From a virus: DNA of 32,924 nt. The position numbers and the translations under genes were made by a program. A model generated the notes under the pieces. The model was given only the letters and a program-made list of their open reading frames with translations. It was not told the origin of the DNA and made no database searches. Shown piece after piece: positions 1 through 23,263 of this stretch; the stretch's first letter is position 1, and every line of letters starts with the position of its first letter. The stretch spans positions 1 through 32,924 of the IMG/VR virus record IMGVR_UViG_3300038457_000187; one strand, given 5' to 3'.

Positions 1-3000
1 CGCCGACGACCGGCAACTGGGCTGCCGTGGCTAAGCAAGGCGAAGATTACCTTGCCAGTATCGGCATGGGCCTTTCTCCATATAACCTGGACTGGATCTT
101 TGTCAACGGCGAAGCGGGCGTCCCACAGCAGCGGCGCGTGAATGCCCTCATCACGCACTTCGGTGCAGATTGGGTTGATAACGCGCGACGGCTCTCGGGC
201 GAAGATTACCGCGAACGCACCGGCGTCCCCGAAGCCCCCTTCTCCAAAACCTGGCACGAACTCGCCTTCCGGCGTGTTCTCCGCCATGCAGCCGAAAACG
301 GCTACGACCGCTTGACGTGGACCACGGGAGAGCAGCAGGCTGAACGATATGACCTATCAAAACAGCTTAGCGAAGTCTCCGCCTACGAACAACCCGATGG
401 ATCGTTCGACCTTTCCGCGCGCACGAAGGAAGGCCGGTTGCACGATATCGGCTCCCACATCCCGCCAGACAAAGTTGAGGATTACGTAGGCAAGGATCTC
501 GCCGCCAAGATTGTGGCCAAGCAGGCACCCCCAGTATCGTCGGATCGGCCCAGTTGGAGATCCTACACCGGCCTGGACCTGAAGGTGGGCGGGGAAGGCA
601 TGAAAGGCTTCTATGACCAGATTCTTCCAGCCTACGCATCCAAGTTGGGAAAGAAGTGGGGAGCAAAAGTAGGAGAGACGAAAGTACGAACCAAGCGCGG
701 TGGGAAAGTCTCTGTCTTCGCACAGCCCTTTGAAGGCCGGCCAACCATCTGGCAGGTTTACAACAGCAGCGATCTGAACGCTGACCCCATCGCCGAATTC
801 GACACTGAAGCAGCAGCAAACGAGTTCGCAAAATCGGCTCAACCCGCTGGATTTGAAACCGTCCACTCGATCGACATTACCCCTGCCATGCGGGAATCCG
901 TCATGCAGGGCCAGGCGCTATTCAACATCCCGGCTCCGCATGCGCCAATCGCCCCCACCACCGTCACCACCCCCCGGCTATCCAGCAACTACGAGCGCAC
1001 CAAGCCCTACATGCCCAGCCGCAGTCTCGGGTACCACATTCAGAATGCGGTATTCGAACGCATCGCCTTAAGCCCCGCCGACTCAACCTACGCCAAGGCC
1101 TACGTGGTAAATCAGGACGCCATGGCCTTTGCGGCGAGCTTCGCCGGCTTCAGCATGGACGATGCAGCCATGAACTTGCGCGGGCTCCACATGGACCCAC
1201 ACAACGCGCGTAAGGTGGCTTCCATGTGCGCCACGATGAAGCAGCCGTACACCACGGTGCCTGAGGCCCTGGACCAGTTGCACCAGTTTGCCGCCAGGGC
1301 GGCAGCCGAAAACAAAAGCCTCATCCTGGTTGCAGACCATGAAACCTTCCCCGGCTGGCACAAGGCCATTGCCATGCGGGAAGAACTCGACCACGCCTTG
1401 CAGGCTGGCTCAACCCAGACCCTCACCCGCTACCACCTGGGAGACTCGGCCACGTGGCTGACACAGGGATCTGAACCAGGAAGAGTGGCGGCGGCCACCA
1501 TCACCAAGCGCTACGGATACCTGCCCCAGGGAATGCTGGCGGCCGAGGTAGGCGTCCGGCTGATGCGTCCGGACGGGTACAAGGAGCTTGGTATCACTGG
1601 TACCGAAGCCCGTTACCTCGCCGCGCAATACGTGAGAGCATTAAGGAGAGAATATGGCACCGAATCTTCCCGCGCAATCGCCGAGCGAGTCTTCGCCGCA
1701 GCAGAACCTCGAGGAACTGCTGGAAGCAACGGACCCCAAAGTCTTCGAAGCGGCCCTGGACAGGCTGTATCCCCCGAGCGGCCTGGAGCAGGTGAAGCTG
1801 TCGGGCAACGGGATCGAAATGCAGGGGACCAGGGTGAAGCTGCCGCTTTCCGCCCCAGCCGCGTAGCGGGCGCACAAGCCGCCCGTCTCCGCGAACTCTT
1901 CAAAACCCCCAACCTTGCCGAGGAATTGGCACGTAGCAAGTTCGATGTCCTCCGGCAATACGAAACCGGAGATGATGGTAAACACTACGAGGCAATAGGC
2001 GTTCTGAAGCCAGAAGTTTTCGGGCCACATGCGTCCGCGTCCCATCCCGGCGAGCGCGGCTCCGCTCCCATGCTCACCGATCTGACCGACGCCCTGGTGC
2101 GCAAATTCGGCAAAGACGACGCCCCCAAAGCCAACTACAGCGCTATGGGCGGCCTCAAGCGCATTGTACAGCCCGGCCAATCCCTGGCCGAAGTGGAGAA
2201 GTCCTCCAAGGACGTGTTTGAAGCCGCTCTCCGGACCGGCGGATCCATGTCGCAGGCCTCCACGGTCCTCCATTCTGCCATGCCAGCGATCATGAAAGTG
2301 CTGAAAGGCTCGCCCATCACCTGGGACACGCTCGCCATGGCTTACGATCAGTCCCGTCTCGAAGGCATCCGCGATCGCTGGAACGGCTTTGCGGACCAGG
2401 CGGCCGAGATGACGGAAGAGGACCTGAAGGATTTCGTCTACGGAAAGTACTCGAGCGACCACCCCAACCCGACACTGCAACTGCTGTCGAATATCGAAGG
2501 GCGCGCCGGCCTGGCGCAGGACTTGGGGCAGACTGCGGCGGCTCTGGCCGAGGCACACGACTGGGACACGTTGCGCGAATTCCTGGAACAGACGTTCCGC
2601 GACGCCGCGGCGCGCGTGCAGCAGGTGATGCCCGAACCGGCCTTCGATTACGTCTGCGATCTCATCAAATCCCAGCCGGGAGTCGCTGAGGCCCACCGCA
2701 TTTACAAAGACCAGGTGGAAGCGGTGATGGCCCGGAATCACGCTCTCAATGAAGGCGTGTTTTCCGACGCGCTGGGACCCCTCGATACCTACTACCCGCT
2801 GATCCCCGTGGACAAACAGACGGTAGCGGGACCAGGCCGGCGCCTGCCGTACCACCCGCCCAAGAACATCGCCAACGCCTTCGCCACAGGTTTATCGTCC
2901 GGCGGCTACTCGATCCACATGGAGGACTTCGCCCGGCGCCTGGCCAGCGCGATCCGCGCCAACGACAAGGCCGTGCTCATCAAGACCTTGCGTGAGACCG

Positions 3001-4616
3001 CGTGGCTGAAACCCCAGCCCGCCAACTGGGACGGCACGATCAAAGGACCGGACGGCGAGGTCTATGAAGGCGCGCAAGTCGAAACCGGACAGGCGCGGCT
3101 GATTATCCAGAACGGCAAGGTTACCCATATCCCGGCCAGCTTCGGAGTCATGCCGAAGTTTATGGAGCGGGGCTTGCGGCCGATCCTCGCCAAAGAGCCA
3201 AGCGATCCGAACGACGTCGCCAAAATGATGGCCTGGGCCAACATGCTGGCCACCAAAGGCCCCTACGAATTCCTGTTCCACTCGTCCGGCGTCATGGGCG
3301 CGCTCTATTCCAACACGCCTTTCCTGGGCAAGTCCGGACTGGACAAGGCGCTTTCTTTGCCCCTCATTAAGTGGGCGGCCATCCGGGGCAAGCTGCTGTC
3401 CATCGATCCCACAACTCCCGAGAACATCGCCAAACTGCAAAAGATGGCGCAGGCCGGCGCGATGCCTGCGCGGTCGGGCAAAGTGACATACTCGAAAGAA
3501 TTTGCCGAGGCCACCGGCGCCAAGGTCGAGCGCGCCAGCTTCGGCCCGTTACTGTTTGGCCCGAAAGGCCTGGACGCCCGCGCGCGCATCCTGATGTACG
3601 ACATCTTTCAGGCGTCATTCCCCGCCGAGGAGCAGACCCCCAGCAACCTGTACCACTTCGTCAACCAGCTCGGGAACTACACCCCGGAATTCCAGGGCGA
3701 GATCGAGAAGTTCGTCAAGCGCATCGGCCTGGGACCGTTCGCTACCGCCGGCATGACGCGCATGGTGAACGCGGTGGATTCCTACACCGGAGCACCCCTG
3801 GCCGCGGGTGGCAAAGGACCATACGGTCAGATGACGCCCGAAGCGCGCGCCTGGATGTGGGCAGCCTCGAGCATTATGGCTGTGGCGCTGTGGGTGATTG
3901 GCTACAAATTGCTCACCGGGAAATGGCCGCTGGAAGACAGGCGCGCCAAGGCTTTCTCTATCCCGGTTGGCGGTGGCAATGGATATATCGATCAGTTCCG
4001 GCATTCGAAGCTGGGCGATGCCATGTGGGGGAATGGTCCGGAAGTGGGCTACCTCAATTTTAACTGGTACAATCCCCTGCCGGCCCGCGGCGCCAGGTTA
4101 TTCGGCGTGCCGCAAATGTTCCAGACCATGCAGTCTGGCGGTACCGGCGCGCAGATGGCGCAAGGCGCATTCTCGGATATCTCGAACAGCCTGGCGCACC
4201 CCATGGAAGGCCCCGCCGCGCGCAGCATGTTCGTGCTGGGCAGTGGGCTGCTGGGCCAGGGCTACGAGCCTTACGTGGAACCCGGCCCGAAGTTGATGCC
4301 CGCAACGCCCAACACACGCAAGCCCGGATTTATGGGCGGCCTGATGCCGGCGTTTTCTTCGGCTCCTGCGCAGAAGCACGCTGGCTATTCTTCGGAGGTC
4401 GGCGCCACCATCGGTGCCTCAATCCGTGAGTTGAATGCCTTCTATGGCGATTTGGGCCAGCAGAGCGGATTCCTGGGCAGCGACCGGGGGAAAGTGGGTA
4501 ACGCCTGGTGGCGGATGGCGGCCGACTTGAACCCTATTACCCAGGGAATCGTGCAGAATGCCTCCAGCCCGGAGAAACGCGAGAAGGCGCTGCGCCGGGA
4601 AGCTGCCGGACATTAA
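1..4616 (+). CDS. Giant phage polyvalent / virion-associated protein, C-terminal part (partial)
   Basis: The reading frame is open at the left edge (in frame from base 3) and ends with TAA at 4616. More than 1,530 residues are visible and the true start lies outside. Near residues 75-125 are WHELAFRRVLRHAAENGYDR and WTTGEQQAERYDLSKQ. Around 180-215 are TGLDLKVGGEGMKGFYDQ and LGKKWGAKVG, and near 285 is SIDITPAMRESVMQGQALF. These signatures recur in giant polyvalent proteins of phages and integrative elements, which are thought to be injected or to act on the host. A degenerate zinc-metallopeptidase-like motif (REELDH) sits near residue 450, followed by a low-complexity linker at about 560-620. 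The last 900 residues are unrecognised and have one hydrophobic segment (WMWAASSIMAVALWVIGYKLL) near residue 1280. The family assignment rests on remembered signatures and the biochemical role is inference. Confidence 0.85.
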   Translation, partial: PTTGNWAAVAKQGEDYLASIGMGLSPYNLDWIFVNGEAGVPQQRRVNALITHFGADWVDNARRLSGEDYRERTGVPEAPFSKTWHELAFRRVLRHAAENGYDRLTWTTGEQQAERYDLSKQLSEVSAYEQPDGSFDLSARTKEGRLHDIGSHIPPDKVEDYVGKDLAAKIVAKQAPPVSSDRPSWRSYTGLDLKVGGEGMKGFYDQILPAYASKLGKKWGAKVGETKVRTKRGGKVSVFAQPFEGRPTIWQVYNSSDLNADPIAEFDTEAAANEFAKSAQPAGFETVHSIDITPAMRESVMQGQALFNIPAPHAPIAPTTVTTPRLSSNYERTKPYMPSRSLGYHIQNAVFERIALSPADSTYAKAYVVNQDAMAFAASFAGFSMDDAAMNLRGLHMDPHNARKVASMCATMKQPYTTVPEALDQLHQFAARAAAENKSLILVADHETFPGWHKAIAMREELDHALQAGSTQTLTRYHLGDSATWLTQGSEPGRVAAATITKRYGYLPQGMLAAEVGVRLMRPDGYKELGITGTEARYLAAQYVRALRREYGTESSRAIAERVFAAAEPRGTAGSNGPQSLRSGPGQAVSPERPGAGEAVGQRDRNAGDQGEAAAFRPSRVAGAQAARLRELFKTPNLAEELARSKFDVLRQYETGDDGKHYEAIGVLKPEVFGPHASASHPGERGSAPMLTDLTDALVRKFGKDDAPKANYSAMGGLKRIVQPGQSLAEVEKSSKDVFEAALRTGGSMSQASTVLHSAMPAIMKVLKGSPITWDTLAMAYDQSRLEGIRDRWNGFADQAAEMTEEDLKDFVYGKYSSDHPNPTLQLLSNIEGRAGLAQDLGQTAAALAEAHDWDTLREFLEQTFRDAAARVQQVMPEPAFDYVCDLIKSQPGVAEAHRIYKDQVEAVMARNHALNEGVFSDALGPLDTYYPLIPVDKQTVAGPGRRLPYHPPKNIANAFATGLSSGGYSIHMEDFARRLASAIRANDKAVLIKTLRETAWLKPQPANWDGTIKGPDGEVYEGAQVETGQARLIIQNGKVTHIPASFGVMPKFMERGLRPILAKEPSDPNDVAKMMAWANMLATKGPYEFLFHSSGVMGALYSNTPFLGKSGLDKALSLPLIKWAAIRGKLLSIDPTTPENIAKLQKMAQAGAMPARSGKVTYSKEFAEATGAKVERASFGPLLFGPKGLDARARILMYDIFQASFPAEEQTPSNLYHFVNQLGNYTPEFQGEIEKFVKRIGLGPFATAGMTRMVNAVDSYTGAPLAAGGKGPYGQMTPEARAWMWAASSIMAVALWVIGYKLLTGKWPLEDRRAKAFSIPVGGGNGYIDQFRHSKLGDAMWGNGPEVGYLNFNWYNPLPARGARLFGVPQMFQTMQSGGTGAQMAQGAFSDISNSLAHPMEGPAARSMFVLGSGLLGQGYEPYVEPGPKLMPATPNTRKPGFMGGLMPAFSSAPAQKHAGYSSEVGATIGASIRELNAFYGDLGQQSGFLGSDRGKVGNAWWRMAADLNPITQGIVQNASSPEKREKALRREAAGH
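1654..1866 (+). CDS. Candidate nested small gene inside the giant gene (+1 frame)
   Basis: A 70-residue frame lies wholly within the giant gene, in another frame. Its ATG follows a textbook ribosome-binding site (TTAAGGAGAGAAT, about 5 bases of spacing). The product (MAPNLPAQSPSESSPQQN, then NLEELLEATDPKVFEAALD) looks like a normal helical protein. The giant-gene frame over the same bases is a low-complexity Gly/Ala/Arg linker, which suggests the linker tolerates overprinting. No family is recognised. It could equally be a chance open frame in GC-rich DNA; the ribosome-binding site and composition are the only support. Confidence 0.35.
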   Translation: MAPNLPAQSPSESSPQQNLEELLEATDPKVFEAALDRLYPPSGLEQVKLSGNGIEMQGTRVKLPLSAPAA

Positions 4617-15005: not shown

Positions 15006-15184
15006 GCCGGCCGCCCGGCCAGTCCGGTAATCAGCGCGAGTACCGACATTGTTCGCCGGATTTTGCAGGCGATCTCATTGAGCGCCTGCTGCTCGCGCCG
15101 GCGTCCTGCTGCACATCGGCACCAGATCGGCGGCTCCCCGGGGAATAAGACTACTCCCCAGCCGTGGCATTGTTCGCAGGTCAT
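14999..15184 (-). CDS. DnaJ-type zinc-ribbon small protein (61 aa)
   Basis: I chose the ATG at 15184 because it overlaps the methyltransferase stop (ATGA). MTCEQCHGWGVVLFPGEPPI followed by WCRCAAG is a CxxCxGxG plus CxC zinc-binding module like half of a DnaJ zinc centre. The rest is a basic helix and a hydrophobic end (SVLALITGLAG). Its stop codon lies within the 22-bp palindrome. Confidence 0.65.
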   Translation of the reverse strand: MTCEQCHGWGVVLFPGEPPIWCRCAAGRRREQQALNEIACKIRRTMSVLALITGLAGRPAR

Positions 15185-16323
15185 GGGGCTGCCCTTTCTA
15201 ATTCCGCGTCCTGAAACAGGTTTCCGGTGTGGATGCAATACCGCGAGAACCAGATCACCTCATCCCGTGGTCCCTTGTTGGAGTAGCCCCGTGCTGCCTT
15301 CCATCTGGTCATGTGCCAACCCTCTGGCATGATATGTTCGCCACCGAGTCCGCAAAGCGCTATTCGCAGGTTCCGGTTGTCGCCGTTGGCAATCGCCCAC
15401 TCGCGGACTTCGGCCGCAACGTCTTCCTCAACCGAGTACAGCCGGTTGTCGCGCATCGTATGCGAGTACGGCGGATCCAAGAATACTCCGGTCAGTTGGC
15501 CGCCACCGAGCTTCCAGGTGCAGCTCGGCCTGACTATCCCGGACCAGTCGCCGCAGCAGACGCGCACCCGGCGCAGGCGGTCGGCTAAGGCGCACATCCA
15601 GGACACCAGTGCGACGCCCGGCAGATTCTTGGCATGCACGCCCATTTCATTAGTGAGTTGCGGCCGATGCTGCCAGTCTGGATTTTCCGGGGTCCGGATC
15701 TTGCGCCCCGGCTGCAGCCTACTTACGTCTCCACGGTTCATCTTTGGCAACTTCGATATTCCCCGGCCGCCGCGGTTGATGACCGGCCGCTTATTCATGC
15801 CATCGAGCTTGCCGGCCCAACTCGCCGCCGAATGCACGCCCATCTTGCCATTCAGGCGGAGGTTGGCGCTACCGTTCACGCCGCGGGAATGCGCCTTGCC
15901 GCCTTGCGCGCGGCCAATCCATTCCGGCCTTGAGCACCAGCCGGCGCCGATCCATTGCGAGATACCCCACACCCACCAGCCGGCGATCTTGGCGTTGTAG
16001 AAGTCCGGATCCGTCCCCATCTTGGCGCGGAAGTCCGGTTGTTCGGTAAGCCAGCGATGCCGCGCCTGCAGGTCTACCTCGCTCACCGGCCAGTCGGCAA
16101 ACTCAGCCACGGCTTCTGGATCCGCCTGGAGTGCCCGCCAGAAGTTGGCCAAGTAGGCATCGGCGTCATTCACTGTTTCAATCCGCGGCGCGTGAGGCCT
16201 AGCCAACAGCACAGCCAAGCTGCCAGCAAACGGCTCAACGTAGTTGCCGACGTCGCCGAAGTGCCGCCAGACAAGTTCCGCCGCGCGGCTCTTACCGCCG
16301 AACCAAGGAAAGGGGGCTTTCAT
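15181..16323 (-). CDS. DNA adenine-N6 methyltransferase, Dam/D12 class (380 aa)
   Basis: I chose the ATG at 16323 because it overlaps the upstream stop (ATGA) and puts the FxGGK motif at the N-terminus. MKAPFPWFGGKSRAAELVWR followed by YVEPFAGSLAVLLA is the SAM-binding motif X/I region of D12-class enzymes. GVFLDPPYSHT near residue 285 is the catalytic DPPY motif IV. The 380-residue length exceeds Dam (about 278) because of a basic insert at about 130-215 (KRPVINRGGRGISKLPKMNR), probably the target recognition part. It would protect phage DNA from host restriction. Specificity cannot be read. Confidence 0.9.
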   Translation of the reverse strand: MKAPFPWFGGKSRAAELVWRHFGDVGNYVEPFAGSLAVLLARPHAPRIETVNDADAYLANFWRALQADPEAVAEFADWPVSEVDLQARHRWLTEQPDFRAKMGTDPDFYNAKIAGWWVWGISQWIGAGWCSRPEWIGRAQGGKAHSRGVNGSANLRLNGKMGVHSAASWAGKLDGMNKRPVINRGGRGISKLPKMNRGDVSRLQPGRKIRTPENPDWQHRPQLTNEMGVHAKNLPGVALVSWMCALADRLRRVRVCCGDWSGIVRPSCTWKLGGGQLTGVFLDPPYSHTMRDNRLYSVEEDVAAEVREWAIANGDNRNLRIALCGLGGEHIMPEGWHMTRWKAARGYSNKGPRDEVIWFSRYCIHTGNLFQDAELERAAP

Positions 16324-16628
16324 GCGGCATCCCCCCGCCGCGCTGCGGCCTCGCGCTCCGCGCCGCGCACCAGGTCGCGTTCGCTTTGCCGCTGGGCTTC
16401 CGCCTGGCGGTCGGTCAGCGGCCACAACCGCCCTGGAGTACCCGGCGCGCGGCCGGCATTGGCGCGTGGATTTGCGTCCCGTGCACGTATCTCGCGCGGG
16501 TGGTCGCCGTAGAGCCGCGCTTTGGCGGGGATGCCGCGGGGCGCGCCGGGATCGTATACGTCATCGTTCAGACCCAGTTGGCGCGGGGCGAAGCCGCCGC
16601 GGACGAGGAGTAACCCGAGGGCGGTCAT
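16320..16628 (-). CDS. Basic hypothetical protein (102 aa)
   Basis: ATG at 16628 and TGA at 16320 both lie in four-base overlaps with the neighbouring genes, which is the main evidence. The product begins TALGLLLVRGGFAPRQLGLN and ends with an Arg/Glu/Ala-rich helix (RQAEAQRQSERDLVRGAERE). No domain is recognised. Confidence 0.6.
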   Translation of the reverse strand: MTALGLLLVRGGFAPRQLGLNDDVYDPGAPRGIPAKARLYGDHPREIRARDANPRANAGRAPGTPGRLWPLTDRQAEAQRQSERDLVRGAEREAAARRGDAA

Positions 16629-18569: not shown

Positions 18570-18820
18570 GCGTGGCCCGCTTTTCCGTTTATCAGCCGCT
18601 TCTGGCCGGACTCGCGATCGAAAAACCGCATGTCTTCATCGGCGAGCCGCTCCACGGTTTTGTGGTAATCGAGCTGCACTTTGGCGGCTTTCACGATCGC
18701 ATCCGCGACGCGGGTAACAGCCAAGGCGCGCGCGATCTCCATAGGATTGTCGGGATCTTTCAGCGCTTCGATGGTCTCGAATAAATGGTCGTTCAAGTCA
18801 CGCAACGTGTTCTTTGCCAC
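18566..18820 (-). CDS. Helical hypothetical phage protein (84 aa)
   Basis: GTG at 18820 follows TAAGGAGACTTT, a strong site. The product (KNTLRDLNDHLFETIEALKD, ARALAVTRVADAIVKAAKVQ, then EDMRFFDR) is an all-helical charged protein I recognise as common but unnamed in phage early operons. Coupling to the HNH gene upstream (23-base overlap) and to the small gene downstream. Confidence 0.75.
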   Translation of the reverse strand: MAKNTLRDLNDHLFETIEALKDPDNPMEIARALAVTRVADAIVKAAKVQLDYHKTVERLADEDMRFFDRESGQKRLINGKAGHA

Positions 18821-19610
18821 AAAGTCTCCTTAGTCTGCGTTTCAGCGCCCCGTTGAGCGTAATTACCTGCTTCAGCTCGGGGGGCAGGTTATGGATGCTG
18901 TTGCGGAGCATCATCTCTCCGTCCGTTATCAGCTCCAGGTTTTCGATTTCGCAATGGGCCCGGTTATAGTCACGGAACACAACCTTGTGTCCCGCGGGGA
19001 TCGGGCCATGGTGCTGCTGCCAGACGCGCCAGTGCACCAGCGGCCAGACATCCTTGTGCCATCCGGAGCAGCCGTCGCCGGGGCGCCGCTCCCGGATCTT
19101 GATGCGCAGGTAGCCTTCGGGGTCGGCTACGATGGCGCCCACCGGCTTGTGCAGTTGCGCGGCGCGGCCGTTGAGTTGCCCCGGCTTGAATTGCGTCTCG
19201 GCCATGCGTCCGAGGGCATAACCGGGCATGCGCTTGCCCTTGTTCCACGGCACCAGGCCGGCCCGGAAAGATCCGCCGTTGGCGTGCTTGTGCGAGTTCG
19301 GCCCTTCGGCCGATGCCAAATACTCCGCGCTCTTTTGCAGCCCCAGGCGCGCCGCGGCTTGGTAAACCTTGCCGGCGCTGCGGCCGGTGAGCGCCGCAAT
19401 CTCTGCCGTCGAGTGATCGGCGTACAGCTTGCGCAGGAGATCGAGTTCTACGGTGGACCAGGGCTGGTACCCGGGCTTGCGAAGTCCCAACAATTTTGCC
19501 TTTGTTCGCACTGAGGGGAACGACCGCTTCAGCACTTCCGCCACGGCCCAGGTGGGATGGTGCGGATAGAGCACGCGCAATTTAGTGATGGCTTGGGGCG
19601 TCCAGCGCAA
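18798..19610 (-). CDS. HNH endonuclease with N-terminal HTH modules (270 aa)
   Basis: I chose the TTG at 19610 because CAGGAG lies six bases upstream; a GTG at 19736 would add 42 unremarkable residues. The N-terminal half has two SANT/HTH-like modules (LRWTPQAITKLRVLYPHHP, YQPWSTVELDLLRKLYADHS). The C-terminal half has a beta-beta-metal core: YLRIKIRERRPGDGCSGWHK, VHWRVWQQHHGPIPAGHKVV, RDYNRAHCEIENLELIT. That places H and N near VH and DYN and fits phage HNH_3-type homing-like nucleases. It may cut DNA or act in replication. Start is the main uncertainty. Confidence 0.8.
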   Translation of the reverse strand: MRWTPQAITKLRVLYPHHPTWAVAEVLKRSFPSVRTKAKLLGLRKPGYQPWSTVELDLLRKLYADHSTAEIAALTGRSAGKVYQAAARLGLQKSAEYLASAEGPNSHKHANGGSFRAGLVPWNKGKRMPGYALGRMAETQFKPGQLNGRAAQLHKPVGAIVADPEGYLRIKIRERRPGDGCSGWHKDVWPLVHWRVWQQHHGPIPAGHKVVFRDYNRAHCEIENLELITDGEMMLRNSIHNLPPELKQVITLNGALKRRLRRLCGKEHVA

Positions 19611-19837
19611 GCTTTTCTCCTGAAATTCAAGAAATTGAAACGCGAGCACTTGCGATTCAGGGGTAGGCTTGCGAAAATGAAGGGGAAGCCGTGCCTCCGG
19701 CGCTAAGTGTTTGCGCTTGTTTGCCGTCAGTCTCACCTGCCAAGATTTGATCGACGGCGACCGCTAAGGTAGTTATCCCGGAGGCGACCGTCCGCGGCTT
19801 TCACCTGCAGCGACCCCAATCGCGGGCGTAGCTGCGT
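19611..19837. other. Gap between the HNH and methyltransferase genes
   Basis: About 227 bases if the HNH gene starts at the TTG. The only frame over the right half is the possible 42-residue N-terminal extension of the HNH gene (GTG at 19736). No clear promoter, repeat or hairpin is visible to me here. Confidence 0.4.
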
Positions 19838-21124
19838 TCATGCGTGCGCCTCGTCGAATTCGGCAAGCCGGCGCGCGATCCACTCACTACAGTCTGGCAC
19901 CACCGCGTTACCCAGCCGGCTCAGTCGCTTGGTGCGGTCTTGCATCGCTCTGTCCAGCCCAGCGGGAAGCCCATCAGCCAGCAGACAAATCTTGGATTGA
20001 GCCGCCGTTTCTCCAGGCTCCCGTACTTTGGGCGGTCCGGGCTGTTGCCCGCTGTCTGCGCCTGCTCCTGATCCTGCATGGTTGCCATGCTGTCGGTCGG
20101 GGTAGCCCAGCGCTGGCGCGAGGTCGGGGCGCTCTCTGAGGATGGCTGGCCATCTTGGATCTGAGGGGCCTGGAGCGAAGCGGGGAAGCTGTGCTCCACG
20201 AAGTTCTGAAGCTGCTCGCCCTTCGTTGTTCCCGAGCGGTCCTGATAGCTCAGCTTGTTTGGAGTGCGGTAATCCCTGCTCGCTGGTGTCGGGAACCACA
20301 ACTTCGTTGCTCCCGTTAGCGAGTCCACCACTCCCGGATGGTTCCCGCAACTCTCGCCGTCTTCCTGGCGGGCAGTGGGCCAATTCTGCACTCGCAGGCT
20401 CAGCGCCTCGTAGTCGTCGTGGCTGTTGTACTGGCAGCGCTCTGCCTCGCGTGGAGTTGGCCACTGTTGCACCTTCACCGCAAGGCTCGTTATCGCCGTC
20501 CGGTTCGCGCCTGTGCCGTCGCGCTCGCCCATACGCTGTTTCATCGCCAAGTGCGCCGCTGGCGTCTTCCCGTCGTCTTTCGCCACTGCGGTAGGCCACA
20601 ATGAAGACGCGCTTTCGAATATGGGAAGCTCCGAACTCCGAAGCTCGTAGACAGCGCCAGCATCCCACATACCCGAGTCGGGCAAGGTCTCCAAGCACTC
20701 GCCCCATTGCTCCTCTTGAAGTAAGGAGCCCTGGGACGTTCTCAGCGACCACGAAACGGGGTCGAAGCTCGCCAATAATTCGGGCGAACTCAGACCAAAG
20801 GCCCGTGCGAGATCCTTCAATTCCAACTCGCTTTCCGGCCTGGGAAACGTCCTGGCATGGGAAGCCGCCAACGAGCACATCGACGGGTGAAAGAACGGCA
20901 GCGGTAGCAACGCGGATGTCATGATGTTTGGGAACCTTGGGCCAGTGCTTCTCAAGAATCTCGTGGCAGAATGGGTCGATCTCGATTTGGAAGCGGCACT
21001 CGAAGCCGGCGCGGTCGAAGCCTAAATCCAGGCCGCCGATACCGCTAAACAGCGAGCCATACGTGCGTCGCCGCGTCGCCGCGTCGCCGCGTCTGCCTGT
21101 CGCTGATTGTGGGGGCTTCTCCAT
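19838..21124 (-). CDS. C5 cytosine DNA methyltransferase (428 aa)
   Basis: ATG at 21124 follows a GGAG. All key motifs of the m5C family are visible: motif I SLFSGIGGLDLGF (residues 24-36), motif IV GGFPCQDVSQAG with the catalytic Cys near 90, motif VI AENVPGLL (127-134), motif VIII HIRKRVFIVA (168-177) and motif X RLGNAVVPDCSEW near 403. The target recognition region (180-390) is Gly/Arg-rich. It would methylate phage DNA against restriction. Two oddities: an 8-bp tandem repeat near the start, and a second, recognisable frame overprinting most of the gene. Confidence 0.92.
   Translation of the reverse strand: MEKPPQSATGRRGDAATRRRTYGSLFSGIGGLDLGFDRAGFECRFQIEIDPFCHEILEKHWPKVPKHHDIRVATAAVLSPVDVLVGGFPCQDVSQAGKRVGIEGSRTGLWSEFARIIGELRPRFVVAENVPGLLTSRGAMGRVLGDLARLGYVGCWRCLRASEFGASHIRKRVFIVAYRSGERRREDASGALGDETAYGRARRHRREPDGDNEPCGEGATVANSTRGRALPVQQPRRLRGAEPASAELAHCPPGRRRELREPSGSGGLANGSNEVVVPDTSEQGLPHSKQAELSGPLGNNEGRAASELRGAQLPRFAPGPSDPRWPAILRERPDLAPALGYPDRQHGNHAGSGAGADSGQQPGPPKVREPGETAAQSKICLLADGLPAGLDRAMQDRTKRLSRLGNAVVPDCSEWIARRLAEFDEAHA
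19921..20955 (-). CDS. Overprinted +1-frame protein with WPTP repeats (344 aa)
   Basis: This frame lies entirely inside the C5 methyltransferase gene on the same strand, read in +1 relative to it. SFDPVSWSLRTSQGSLL, LETLPDSGMWDAGAVYELRS, repeated WPTP/WPTA motifs (LWPTAVAKDD, QWPTPREAE, NWPTARQEDG, WFPTPASRDYRTP) and the C-terminal LNPRFVCWLMGFPLGWTE match a pattern I know from many phage-encoded proteins. SLRTSQ lies opposite motif VI of the methyltransferase, and WLMGFPLGWTE lies near the end of the methyltransferase, opposite residues just before motif X. Both frames therefore carry family-like signal. Start at 20955 is uncertain. Confidence 0.5.
   Translation of the reverse strand: MRSTGPRFPNIMTSALLPLPFFHPSMCSLAASHARTFPRPESELELKDLARAFGLSSPELLASFDPVSWSLRTSQGSLLQEEQWGECLETLPDSGMWDAGAVYELRSSELPIFESASSLWPTAVAKDDGKTPAAHLAMKQRMGERDGTGANRTAITSLAVKVQQWPTPREAERCQYNSHDDYEALSLRVQNWPTARQEDGESCGNHPGVVDSLTGATKLWFPTPASRDYRTPNKLSYQDRSGTTKGEQLQNFVEHSFPASLQAPQIQDGQPSSESAPTSRQRWATPTDSMATMQDQEQAQTAGNSPDRPKYGSLEKRRLNPRFVCWLMGFPLGWTERCKTAPSD
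21065..21093. repeat. 8-bp tandem repeat near the methyltransferase start
   Basis: GCGTCGCC is repeated about 3.6 times. It encodes part of residues 11-20 of the methyltransferase (RRGDAATRRR), between the start and motif I. Because 8 is not a multiple of 3, gain or loss of one unit would shift the frame. Confidence 0.75.
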
Positions 21125-21410: not shown

Positions 21411-21464
21411 TTGATTATAATTGACTTCCGGGCGGAAATGTCAATTACAATAGACTTCCGAGAC
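21411..21464 (+). promoter_or_regulatory. Tandem promoter-like repeat and operator before the sigma gene
   Basis: AATTGAC (21419-21425) and GTCAATT (21440-21446) form a 7-bp inverted repeat with an inner TTCC/GGAA stem. TTGACT and TACAAT (21446-21451) stand 19 bases apart just before the ATG at 21465. ATTATAATTGACTTCCG and AATTACAATAGACTTCCG are a degenerate 30-bp direct repeat. The arrangement suits an autoregulated promoter with a very short leader. Confidence 0.5.
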
Positions 21465-22049
21465 ATGACCGATTGTCCCTCATGGCCCGAAGTAGTGGCG
21501 CGCATCGTCGCCGACGACCCTTCCGGCATGGAAGAGTTGTACCGCCGCTGTTTCGCGCGCGGTGTGCACGTCTACCTTGGACGCCGGCTGGGTTGGCAGG
21601 CCGCCCTGGACTTTACGCATGACGCCTTCGTGGCGACCGTTGGCGCCATCCACCGCGGGGAGTTGCGCAATCCAGAGTGCCTGATGGGATACGTCCAGTC
21701 CATCGTCCGGCGCATGGTGGCCGGTGAGATCGAGGAGCGCGTGCGCCAGCGCGAGGTCCGGCAGATCAGGGAGCCCGCCGACCGGCGCGACCCGGAGCGG
21801 GTGTTACTCGCGGCCGAGAAAGACCAGGCTATCGATCGCAAGCTGGGCAAACTCAAGGGCGCGGACCTGGCCATCATCACCCGGTTCTACCAACTGGGCG
21901 ATACCGCAAAGGAAATCTGGCAAGACCTGGGCCTGACCGAAACCCAGTTCCGGCTGCGCAAGTCGCGCGCGCTCGATCGGCTCCGGCCGCGCGGGCACGT
22001 GCGACGCGTGTACCGGCCGCGCCGGCTGGAAACGGAGCGCACGGTTTGA
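21465..22049 (+). CDS. ECF-family RNA polymerase sigma factor (194 aa)
   Basis: I chose the ATG at 21465; an in-frame TTG at 21411 would add 18 residues encoded by the repeat upstream. Region 2 is visible as YLGRRLGWQAALDFTHDAFV and LMGYVQSIVRRMVAGEIEER. Region 4 is ITRFYQLGDTAKEIWQDLGL followed by TETQFRLRKSRALDRLRPRG. The linker is short, as in ECF factors. It would redirect host RNA polymerase to phage or host genes. No anti-sigma gene is adjacent. A TnpB element sits directly after its stop. Confidence 0.88.
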   Translation: MTDCPSWPEVVARIVADDPSGMEELYRRCFARGVHVYLGRRLGWQAALDFTHDAFVATVGAIHRGELRNPECLMGYVQSIVRRMVAGEIEERVRQREVRQIREPADRRDPERVLLAAEKDQAIDRKLGKLKGADLAIITRFYQLGDTAKEIWQDLGLTETQFRLRKSRALDRLRPRGHVRRVYRPRRLETERTV

Positions 22050-22050
22050 T

Positions 22051-23263
22051 GGGCAATAACATACCTAACCGACCGGTACGTTCCGGAGTACGCCCAGCCC
22101 TAGTAAATACAGGTGCTCCAGCGCACAATAGAACTAGGTGCATCGCACGTTTACAATGCGGCTGAAGCCCAACGCGGAACAGCGGATGGCGCTTACCGGC
22201 ATCCTGGTGGACTCGGCGGAAACGTACAACGCCGCCCTCCAGGAGCGCCGCGACGCATGGAAGCTGTGCCACAAGAGCATCACCTACGAGGACCAGTGCG
22301 GCGAGCTGACCCAGCTTCGGCAAGACCCGCGCTACGCCACCATCGCCGTCGATATCCAGCGGGAGCCGCTGCGCCGCGTGGACCGCGCCTTCAAGGCGTT
22401 CTTCCGCCGCTGTAAAGCTGGAGAGAAGCCGGGGTTTCCAAGGTTCCGCGCGCGCGCACGATACGATTCCTTCGCGTGGCACGAACCCAGCCTCAAGGAC
22501 GCTGCGGTTCTGGTTCCTAAGCTCGGCTGTATCCGCTTCAAGTCTCATCGGCCCGTCGAAGGCCAGCCGAAGCAGGCGACCATCAAGCGGTGCGGCGGCA
22601 AATGGGAATTGCGCGTGGTGTGCGACCTTGGCGAAGCGCCGCCAAAGGTCGCCGTCTCCAATGCGGTTGGCATCGACCTGGGTCTGACGAATTTCGCAAC
22701 CTTGAGCGACGGCGCGGTGATCGACAACCCGCATTTCACGCGGAAGCACGAAGTGCGCATCGCGGCGGCCAACCGCAAGCTGGCACTGAAACAGAAGCGG
22801 TCCAAGAATCGCATCCGCGCCCGCGAAGTATTGCGCCGCGCTCACCAGCGGGCCGGGGACGCTCGGCGGAACTTTTGCCACCATGCCTCGAAGTGGCTGG
22901 TCGAGCACTACGATCTCATTGCGTTTGAAAAGCTCAATATCCGGGGGATGGTTCGGAGCAACCTGGCGAAGTCCATCCTCGACGCGGCATGGGCCGAACT
23001 GATCTGGCAGATATCGTACAAGGCTGAAAGCGCCGGACGATGGGCCATTCCAGTGAACCCCAGAGGCACGTCGATTCGATGCTCTCAATGCGGGGCGGAC
23101 GTTCGTAAGACGCTCGCCGACCGGCAGCACCTTTGCGGCTGCGGAGCATCGCTCGACAGAGACTACAACGCCGCGCTCAACGTCCTTGCGCTTGGCAGAA
23201 GCGCTGCGGGGCTTTGCCCTTCAGGAAACGTACCGGTCGGTTAGGTATGTTATTGCCCTTGAC
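22051..23263 (+). mobile_element. IS200/IS605-group element carrying only TnpB
   Basis: The element starts right after TTGAT (22046-22050). The right flank reads TTGAC at 23259-23263. As I recall, TTGAT and TTGAC are the left target/TAM and right cleavage sites of ISDra2. No tnpA is present, so it is a TnpB-only (IS1341-type) element of about 1.2 kb. Both ends carry the same 32-bp sequence in inverted orientation (22051-22082 and 23227-23258, perfect match). Long terminal inverted repeats are not typical of this group. The element follows the sigma gene's stop, so it breaks no coding sequence that I can see. Confidence 0.8.
22138..23244 (+). CDS. tnpB: TnpB RNA-guided endonuclease (368 aa)
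   Basis: GTG start at 22138; MHRTFTMRLKPNAEQRMALT is the usual TnpB start. RuvC-I AVGIDLGLTNFA holds Asp180, RuvC-II LIAFEKLNIRG holds Glu264, and RuvC-III LDRDYNAALNVL holds Asp342. The zinc finger is CSQCGAD near 315 and CGCG near 333. All catalytic residues are intact, so it could cut DNA guided by an omega RNA made from the right end. The last codons (VPVG and stop) lie inside the terminal repeat. The expected guide would be the bases just after the right end. Confidence 0.92.
   Translation: MHRTFTMRLKPNAEQRMALTGILVDSAETYNAALQERRDAWKLCHKSITYEDQCGELTQLRQDPRYATIAVDIQREPLRRVDRAFKAFFRRCKAGEKPGFPRFRARARYDSFAWHEPSLKDAAVLVPKLGCIRFKSHRPVEGQPKQATIKRCGGKWELRVVCDLGEAPPKVAVSNAVGIDLGLTNFATLSDGAVIDNPHFTRKHEVRIAAANRKLALKQKRSKNRIRAREVLRRAHQRAGDARRNFCHHASKWLVEHYDLIAFEKLNIRGMVRSNLAKSILDAAWAELIWQISYKAESAGRWAIPVNPRGTSIRCSQCGADVRKTLADRQHLCGCGASLDRDYNAALNVLALGRSAAGLCPSGNVPVG

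Follow-up and report, generated by a model that had tools for sequence, protein, structure and literature searches.

Overlapping reading frames of a viral C5 cytosine DNA methyltransferase gene as the probable source of two subunits of one enzyme

The window, the whole 32,924-nt stretch of viral DNA analysed here (IMG/VR record IMGVR_UViG_3300038457_000187), carries on its minus strand an ORF for a C5 cytosine DNA methyltransferase (MTase), hereafter alpha, which starts at ATG 21124 with GGAG upstream and within which a long +1 ORF, hereafter beta, is nested (Table 1). Alpha matched PF00145 (E 1.8e-48) with the match confined to residues 24-183, the phage profile phrog_363 (E 4e-70) and, by phmmer, M.HaeIII/M.HhaI over residues 23-180; the Pfam and PDB matches end at motif VIII. 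The initial annotation, made from the sequence alone, had read motifs I, IV, VI, VIII and X in the MTase frame, and all of these PF00145 hallmarks could be located by coordinates in the alpha coding frame. The alpha polypeptide lacks motif IX as well as any conserved target-recognition region between motifs VIII and X, and a motif-IX-like segment sits in the +1 frame, not in the MTase frame.

Table 1. Features of the methyltransferase locus (window coordinates; p1 and p3, rates at MTase codon positions 1 and 3)
Feature	Coordinates	Strand	Remarks
Alpha ORF, C5 cytosine DNA methyltransferase	19838..21124	-	428 aa; motifs I-VIII and X
Alpha motif I, FSGIGG	21032-21049	-	
Alpha motif IV, GGFPCQD (PCQ)	20849-20869	-	
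Alpha motif VI, ENV	20735-20743	-	
Alpha motif VIII	20594-20623	-	
Alpha motif X, RLGNAVVP	19895-19918	-	
Putative beta subunit, nested +1 ORF	19921..20922	-	333 aa from ATG 20922; predicted target-recognition region and motif IX
Probable beta start, ATG	20920..20922	-	column 53; spans alpha codons CAT/GAC; inferred from conserved position
Motif-IX segment in beta frame, RRLNPRFVCWLMGFPLGW	19954-20007	-	
Dual-coded zone	20594..20782	-	p3/p1 1.27 vs 2.5-3.0 upstream (near relatives); synonymous-codon z values
Beta-selected zone, WPTP modules and most of motif IX	19969..20593	-	p1 > p3 phase reversal
Alpha-selected C-terminal end including motif X	19838..19968	-	p3/p1 ~2.2 past motif IX

Read from TTG 20955, the +1 ORF comprises 344 codons (19921-20955, minus strand) within a stop-to-stop opening of 366 codons; the third frame contains 16 stops over the same stretch. 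Its length and its content, SLRTSQ, WPT(P/A) repeats and WLMGFPLGW, hold as first annotated, and so does the placement of the WPTP repeats opposite VANSTR, LAHC and LANGS segments of the alpha frame. The beta motif-IX segment has the consensus LNPxFVxWLMGFPxGW, and from locus to locus the WPTP modules vary in how many there are and in what they contain, as a specificity region would be expected to do. In the phage profile search beta matched phrog_1008 (E 4.3e-24, residues 31-337), as did related beta subtypes (E 1e-12 to 7e-38), which, with the alpha match to phrog_363, bears out the early impression that both frames look like real protein families.

Searches of viral contigs and GTDB genomes with the +1 protein, together with two phage records, yielded 172 usable loci, and the exact MTase +1 register over the C5 MTase domain is present in 170 of them; the hosts of the loci found in this way include Proteobacteria, Firmicutes, Actinobacteria, Spirochaetes, Verrucomicrobia and others. 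Because these 172 loci had been selected through the +1 protein, an independent sample was drawn with the catalytic half of the MTase only, in which motif VIII was aligned in 78 loci. By a strict pattern, a WLMG-type motif IX lay in the +1 frame in 50/78, in the +2 frame in 3/78 and in frame 0 in 0/78, and a looser pattern placed motif IX in +1 in ~63/78. Motif X divides the loci into class A, to which the window belongs and in which this motif is in the alpha frame, and class B (mycobacteriophages, L123 and L137), in which motifs IX and X are both in the beta frame and the 0 frame terminates shortly past motif VIII.

Homopolymers were observed between motifs VIII and IX at several loci. L183 and L242, two of the three MTase-found loci with motif IX in +2, have runs of this kind (C12, G11), consistent with a one-base slip. 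Five further loci (L040, L057, L069, L073 and L079) have poly-G tracts of 12, 13, 14 or 15 bases 15 nt past motif VIII, and motif IX then lies in frame 0, +1, +2 or 0, respectively; these length differences come either from homopolymer sequencing error or from phase-variable switching of the pair between frames.

A phase test on 60 locus pairs, with each locus used once, gave rates at MTase codon positions 1/2/3 of.151/.082/.294 up to where motif VIII ends, as is usual for a gene read in the MTase frame, and of.229/.082/.133 past motif VIII, the pattern expected for +1 reading. In the anchored profile the reversal was already present in the first 30 nt past motif VIII, where sites are few (61 per phase, dropping below 30) because only 42 loci yielded that anchor. 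The reversal ends ~30 nt past WLMG, where p3 is fastest again at ~.29; the WLMG-anchored profile contains 130-520 sites per phase over most bins. Among the near relatives of the window, whose pairs are not independent, p3/p1 in five zones was 2.97, 2.54, 1.27, 0.59 and 2.24. The order of zones is MTase-only, dual, +1-only and final MTase-only, and selection changes frame where motif VIII ends and again shortly past motif IX. Constraint acts on both frames in the dual zone, which holds alpha motifs VI-VIII and the beta sequence SLRTSQ...SGM...YELRSSEL, while in the +1-only zone the alpha frame is open and not conserved. The suggestion in the initial annotation that selection may act on both frames is supported, though non-uniformly, zone by zone.

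Constraint on the +1 frame begins well upstream of motif VIII. Among 150 representatives, synonymous codon bias jumps at about MTase column 101, ~60 codons ahead of the end of motif VIII, with GGG used for Gly135 in 116/150 (z 117) and a GCT/GCG bias at Ala145 (z 68). Stops in the +1 frame of the same representatives occur close to the expected rate in columns 5-54, become depleted from columns ~55-65, reach 0.16 of expectation in columns 65-74 and amount to 0 to 0.13 of expectation per bin in columns 85-164, and the +1 frame of homologues stays open even at 42-50% G+C. Two outcomes that would have refuted dual coding, homologues with +1 stops beside an intact MTase and an absence of excess synonymous constraint, were sought and not encountered; both frames are judged to be selected because the +1 frame is kept stop-free and synonymous codon choice is biased. 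Within columns 40-80, +1 ATG codons cluster at columns 52-54, which hold the first ATG past the last +1 stop in 73/151 loci, and +1 stops disappear just past this cluster. An ATG with a Shine-Dalgarno-like sequence was found at columns 52-55 in 18 cases vs 6.7 expected. In the window, where only a weak purine-rich, ribosome-binding-like sequence lies upstream, ATG 20922 is the probable start of beta, likelier than TTG 20955, although initiation was not shown. Taken together, the upstream codon bias, the stop depletion and the ATG cluster point to a separately started beta protein, with initiation inferred.

The relationship of beta to known MTases was traced through class B. The class B beta of Mycobacterium phage Pharaoh (gp78) matched Quico gp77, a single-chain C5 MTase, at 38% over 191 aa with E 3e-27, in a region that is the in-frame C-terminal half of Quico gp77, and the window-type beta family matched class B beta in hhalign (99.3%, E 5e-20). 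Compared directly, the window-type profile matched Quico at motif IX only (93.4%) and canonical motif IX weakly (12.6% probability, 21 columns). By position and homology, the best explanation is that beta is the half of this enzyme that holds target recognition and motif IX. The comparison thus supports an identity for the +1 protein that was absent from the initial annotation, namely that it would be the missing half of this MTase and not an unrelated protein.

We consider it likely that the locus encodes a two-subunit C5 cytosine DNA MTase with its subunits in overlapping frames of one gene. Homology of both frames, a register fixed across many phyla, frame-specific selection and an open alpha frame are demonstrated computationally; the whole case is comparative, and expression, assembly and methylation are inferred from it. 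Alpha, in frame 0, would provide the catalytic core of motifs I-VIII, followed by an open unconserved spacer and then motif X, and beta, nested in alpha in the +1 frame, would contribute the motif-IX segment and a target-recognition region assembled from variable WPTP modules. Beta would presumably have its own start codon (ATG 20922 in the window) and probably be translated by ribosomes on the shared mRNA, after which alpha and beta may join into one active enzyme that could mark phage DNA against host restriction. Points against this reading are the weak ribosome-binding-like sequence ahead of the window's beta ATG, the low-confidence AlphaFold models of beta alone (mean pLDDT 56 and 48), a PDB fold search with one of them (class B) that found nothing, and the weak direct match to canonical motif IX.

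We had favored a different mechanism at first, since the phase switch suggested a programmed +1 frameshift near motif VIII, and back past motif IX, that would yield one chain with motifs I-VIII, the target-recognition region, IX and X. The selected frame does change at exactly those two places, class B would need one +1 switch for a complete enzyme, and Quico gp77 demonstrates that a single-chain homologue exists. Under a frameshift, the new frame should come under selection from the point of the shift onward and the 0 frame should not be needed past it, and neither expectation was borne out. Beta constraint and stop depletion set in 60-100 codons ahead of motif VIII, in sequence that is also under selection for alpha, the ATG cluster lies exactly where stop depletion begins, and window-type loci would require two opposite shifts. 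In the beta-selected zone of 137 class A loci, moreover, only 4 alpha-frame stops were present vs 484 expected from beta-codon shuffling, and 136/137 loci had none vs 8.3 expected, an openness that two shifts would leave unneeded, whereas 13 class B loci contained 106 frame-0 stops vs 115 expected. Alpha is therefore held open only where motif X must be reached in its own frame, which favors two polypeptides over a single chain produced by frameshifting. Because beta is constrained upstream of motif VIII and alpha is kept open, the frameshift was demoted, and we now regard it as improbable.

Two further readings concern the nature of the +1 ORF itself. It might encode an independent protein with another role, such as a regulator or an anti-restriction factor, that merely shares the locus, as could be argued from its lack of recognizable relatives: beta alone had no match among Pfam or PDB families, beta profiles retrieved nothing relevant from PDB sequences, and its N-terminal ~60 codons lacked an identifiable counterpart in ordinary C5 MTases. 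This possibility is hard to reconcile with the homology that links class B beta to the window beta and to the in-frame C-terminal half of Quico gp77, with the absence of motif IX and of a conserved target-recognition region from alpha precisely where beta is selected, and with the movement of motif X into the beta frame in class B, and we assign it only a slim chance. Alternatively, the +1 ORF could be the shadow of a conserved, high-G+C MTase from which no protein is made. High G+C opens frames, ahead of column 55 part of the beta-family sequence follows alpha motifs, and a single gene alone gives limited evidence, as a +1 opening this long arose in 0.44% of synonymous shuffles with the alpha protein fixed (P = 0.004). 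In the reverse shuffle, with the +1 protein fixed, the MTase frame was this open in 0/5000. MTase subtypes with ~34% identity in the alpha frame share 80% identity over a +1 segment (residues 120-163), and the +1 frame is open in homologues of 42-50% G+C as well; the phase reversal, the synonymous-codon bias and the stop depletion in 150 representatives refute the shadow reading, to which we give virtually no weight.

Natural two-polypeptide C5 MTases provide a frame of reference for the overlapping alpha/beta pair. The small polypeptide of M.EcoHK31I is read from an alternative frame of the gene for its large subunit. PMC3404938 describes two such natural enzymes, M.EcoHK31I (YGGCCR) and M.AquI (CYCGRG): the former has motifs I-VIII, X and a predicted TRD in the large polypeptide and motif IX in the small one (citing Lee, Kam and Shaw 1995), and the latter, an alpha/beta enzyme, has motifs I-VIII split from IX-X (citing Karreman and de Waard 1990). 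Comparing layouts, not sequences, the window resembles M.EcoHK31I in that its large subunit has motifs I-VIII and X with motif IX in a second polypeptide, and differs from it in that selection between motifs VIII and IX acts on the beta frame. It resembles M.AquI in being split into two polypeptides close to the motif VIII/TRD boundary, and differs from it in having motif X in alpha and a fully nested overlap of ~1 kb; the M.AquI layout, with IX and X in beta, is matched by the class B relatives. Neither enzyme, as described there, combines a motif X in alpha with a beta that holds the stretch from VIII to IX, as the window does.

Among annotated phages, Mycobacterium phage Pharaoh (gp79/gp78), Streptomyces phage Vash (gp32/gp33) and Paenibacillus phage Arcticfreeze (56/57) have two ORFs in the +1 register, both annotated as DNA methyltransferase/methylase, and many phage records list both ORFs as 'DNA methyltransferase'; unlike the window, the Pharaoh pair (the one tested) is class B. 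Mycobacterium phage Quico gp77 is a C5 MTase that likewise has LPTP repeats, WMMGWP and GNGV, but is a single 581-aa chain in one frame. The initial annotation knew of no description of such a pair as a dual-coding unit. This stands for the pair itself, as no description, explanation or survey of it was found in the literature on overlapping or frameshifted phage C5 MTases, most subscription papers lying outside the search; it does not extend to two-polypeptide C5 MTases and double annotations, which are known. Plasmid records searched with a beta protein returned MTase genes only and no named R-M system.

On balance, we lean toward the broader proposal that a large fraction of phage and prophage C5 MTases across many bacterial phyla are ancient, deeply overlapping alpha/beta pairs, with the specificity subunit in +1 and the selected frame alternating, and that junction homopolymers in some lineages may switch the enzyme on and off. 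If so, this would explain phage cytosine MTases of ~240-300 aa (e.g. L261-L266) without a recognizable target-recognition region, since the overlapping frame is usually dropped by annotation. At other loci only the beta frame is annotated, or two 'DNA methylase' genes form a puzzling pair. Cloning or methylation-specificity prediction would have to keep both frames, as alpha-only recoding would silently destroy beta. The same-strand overlap is unusually long and widely conserved, with selection passing between frames and back, and would make a good test case for the origin and persistence of overlapping genes.

In the Acidovorax phages Alfacinha3 (L001 1937-3103) and Alfacinha1 (L002 1736-2869), the annotated cytosine-specific methyltransferase gp46 is the beta frame, and the catalytic alpha frame is unannotated.

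Several other ORFs of the window were noted. An HNH endonuclease (HNH_3, phrog_1891; 18798-19736, minus strand), possibly a homing or partner nuclease, lies directly 3' of the MTase on the same strand. An IS605 OrfB/TnpB-like transposase with a Cas12f-like TNB domain (22138-23244, plus strand) is overlain by a 417-aa antisense ORF and has a sigma-factor-like ORF (phrog_1740; 21411-22049, plus strand) as its upstream neighbor. A 1529-aa ORF (27-4616, plus strand) had no PHROG or Pfam match, and a 414-aa ORF (15181-16425, minus strand) matched D12-class adenine methyltransferases (PF02086, phrog_56) only at residues 35-108.
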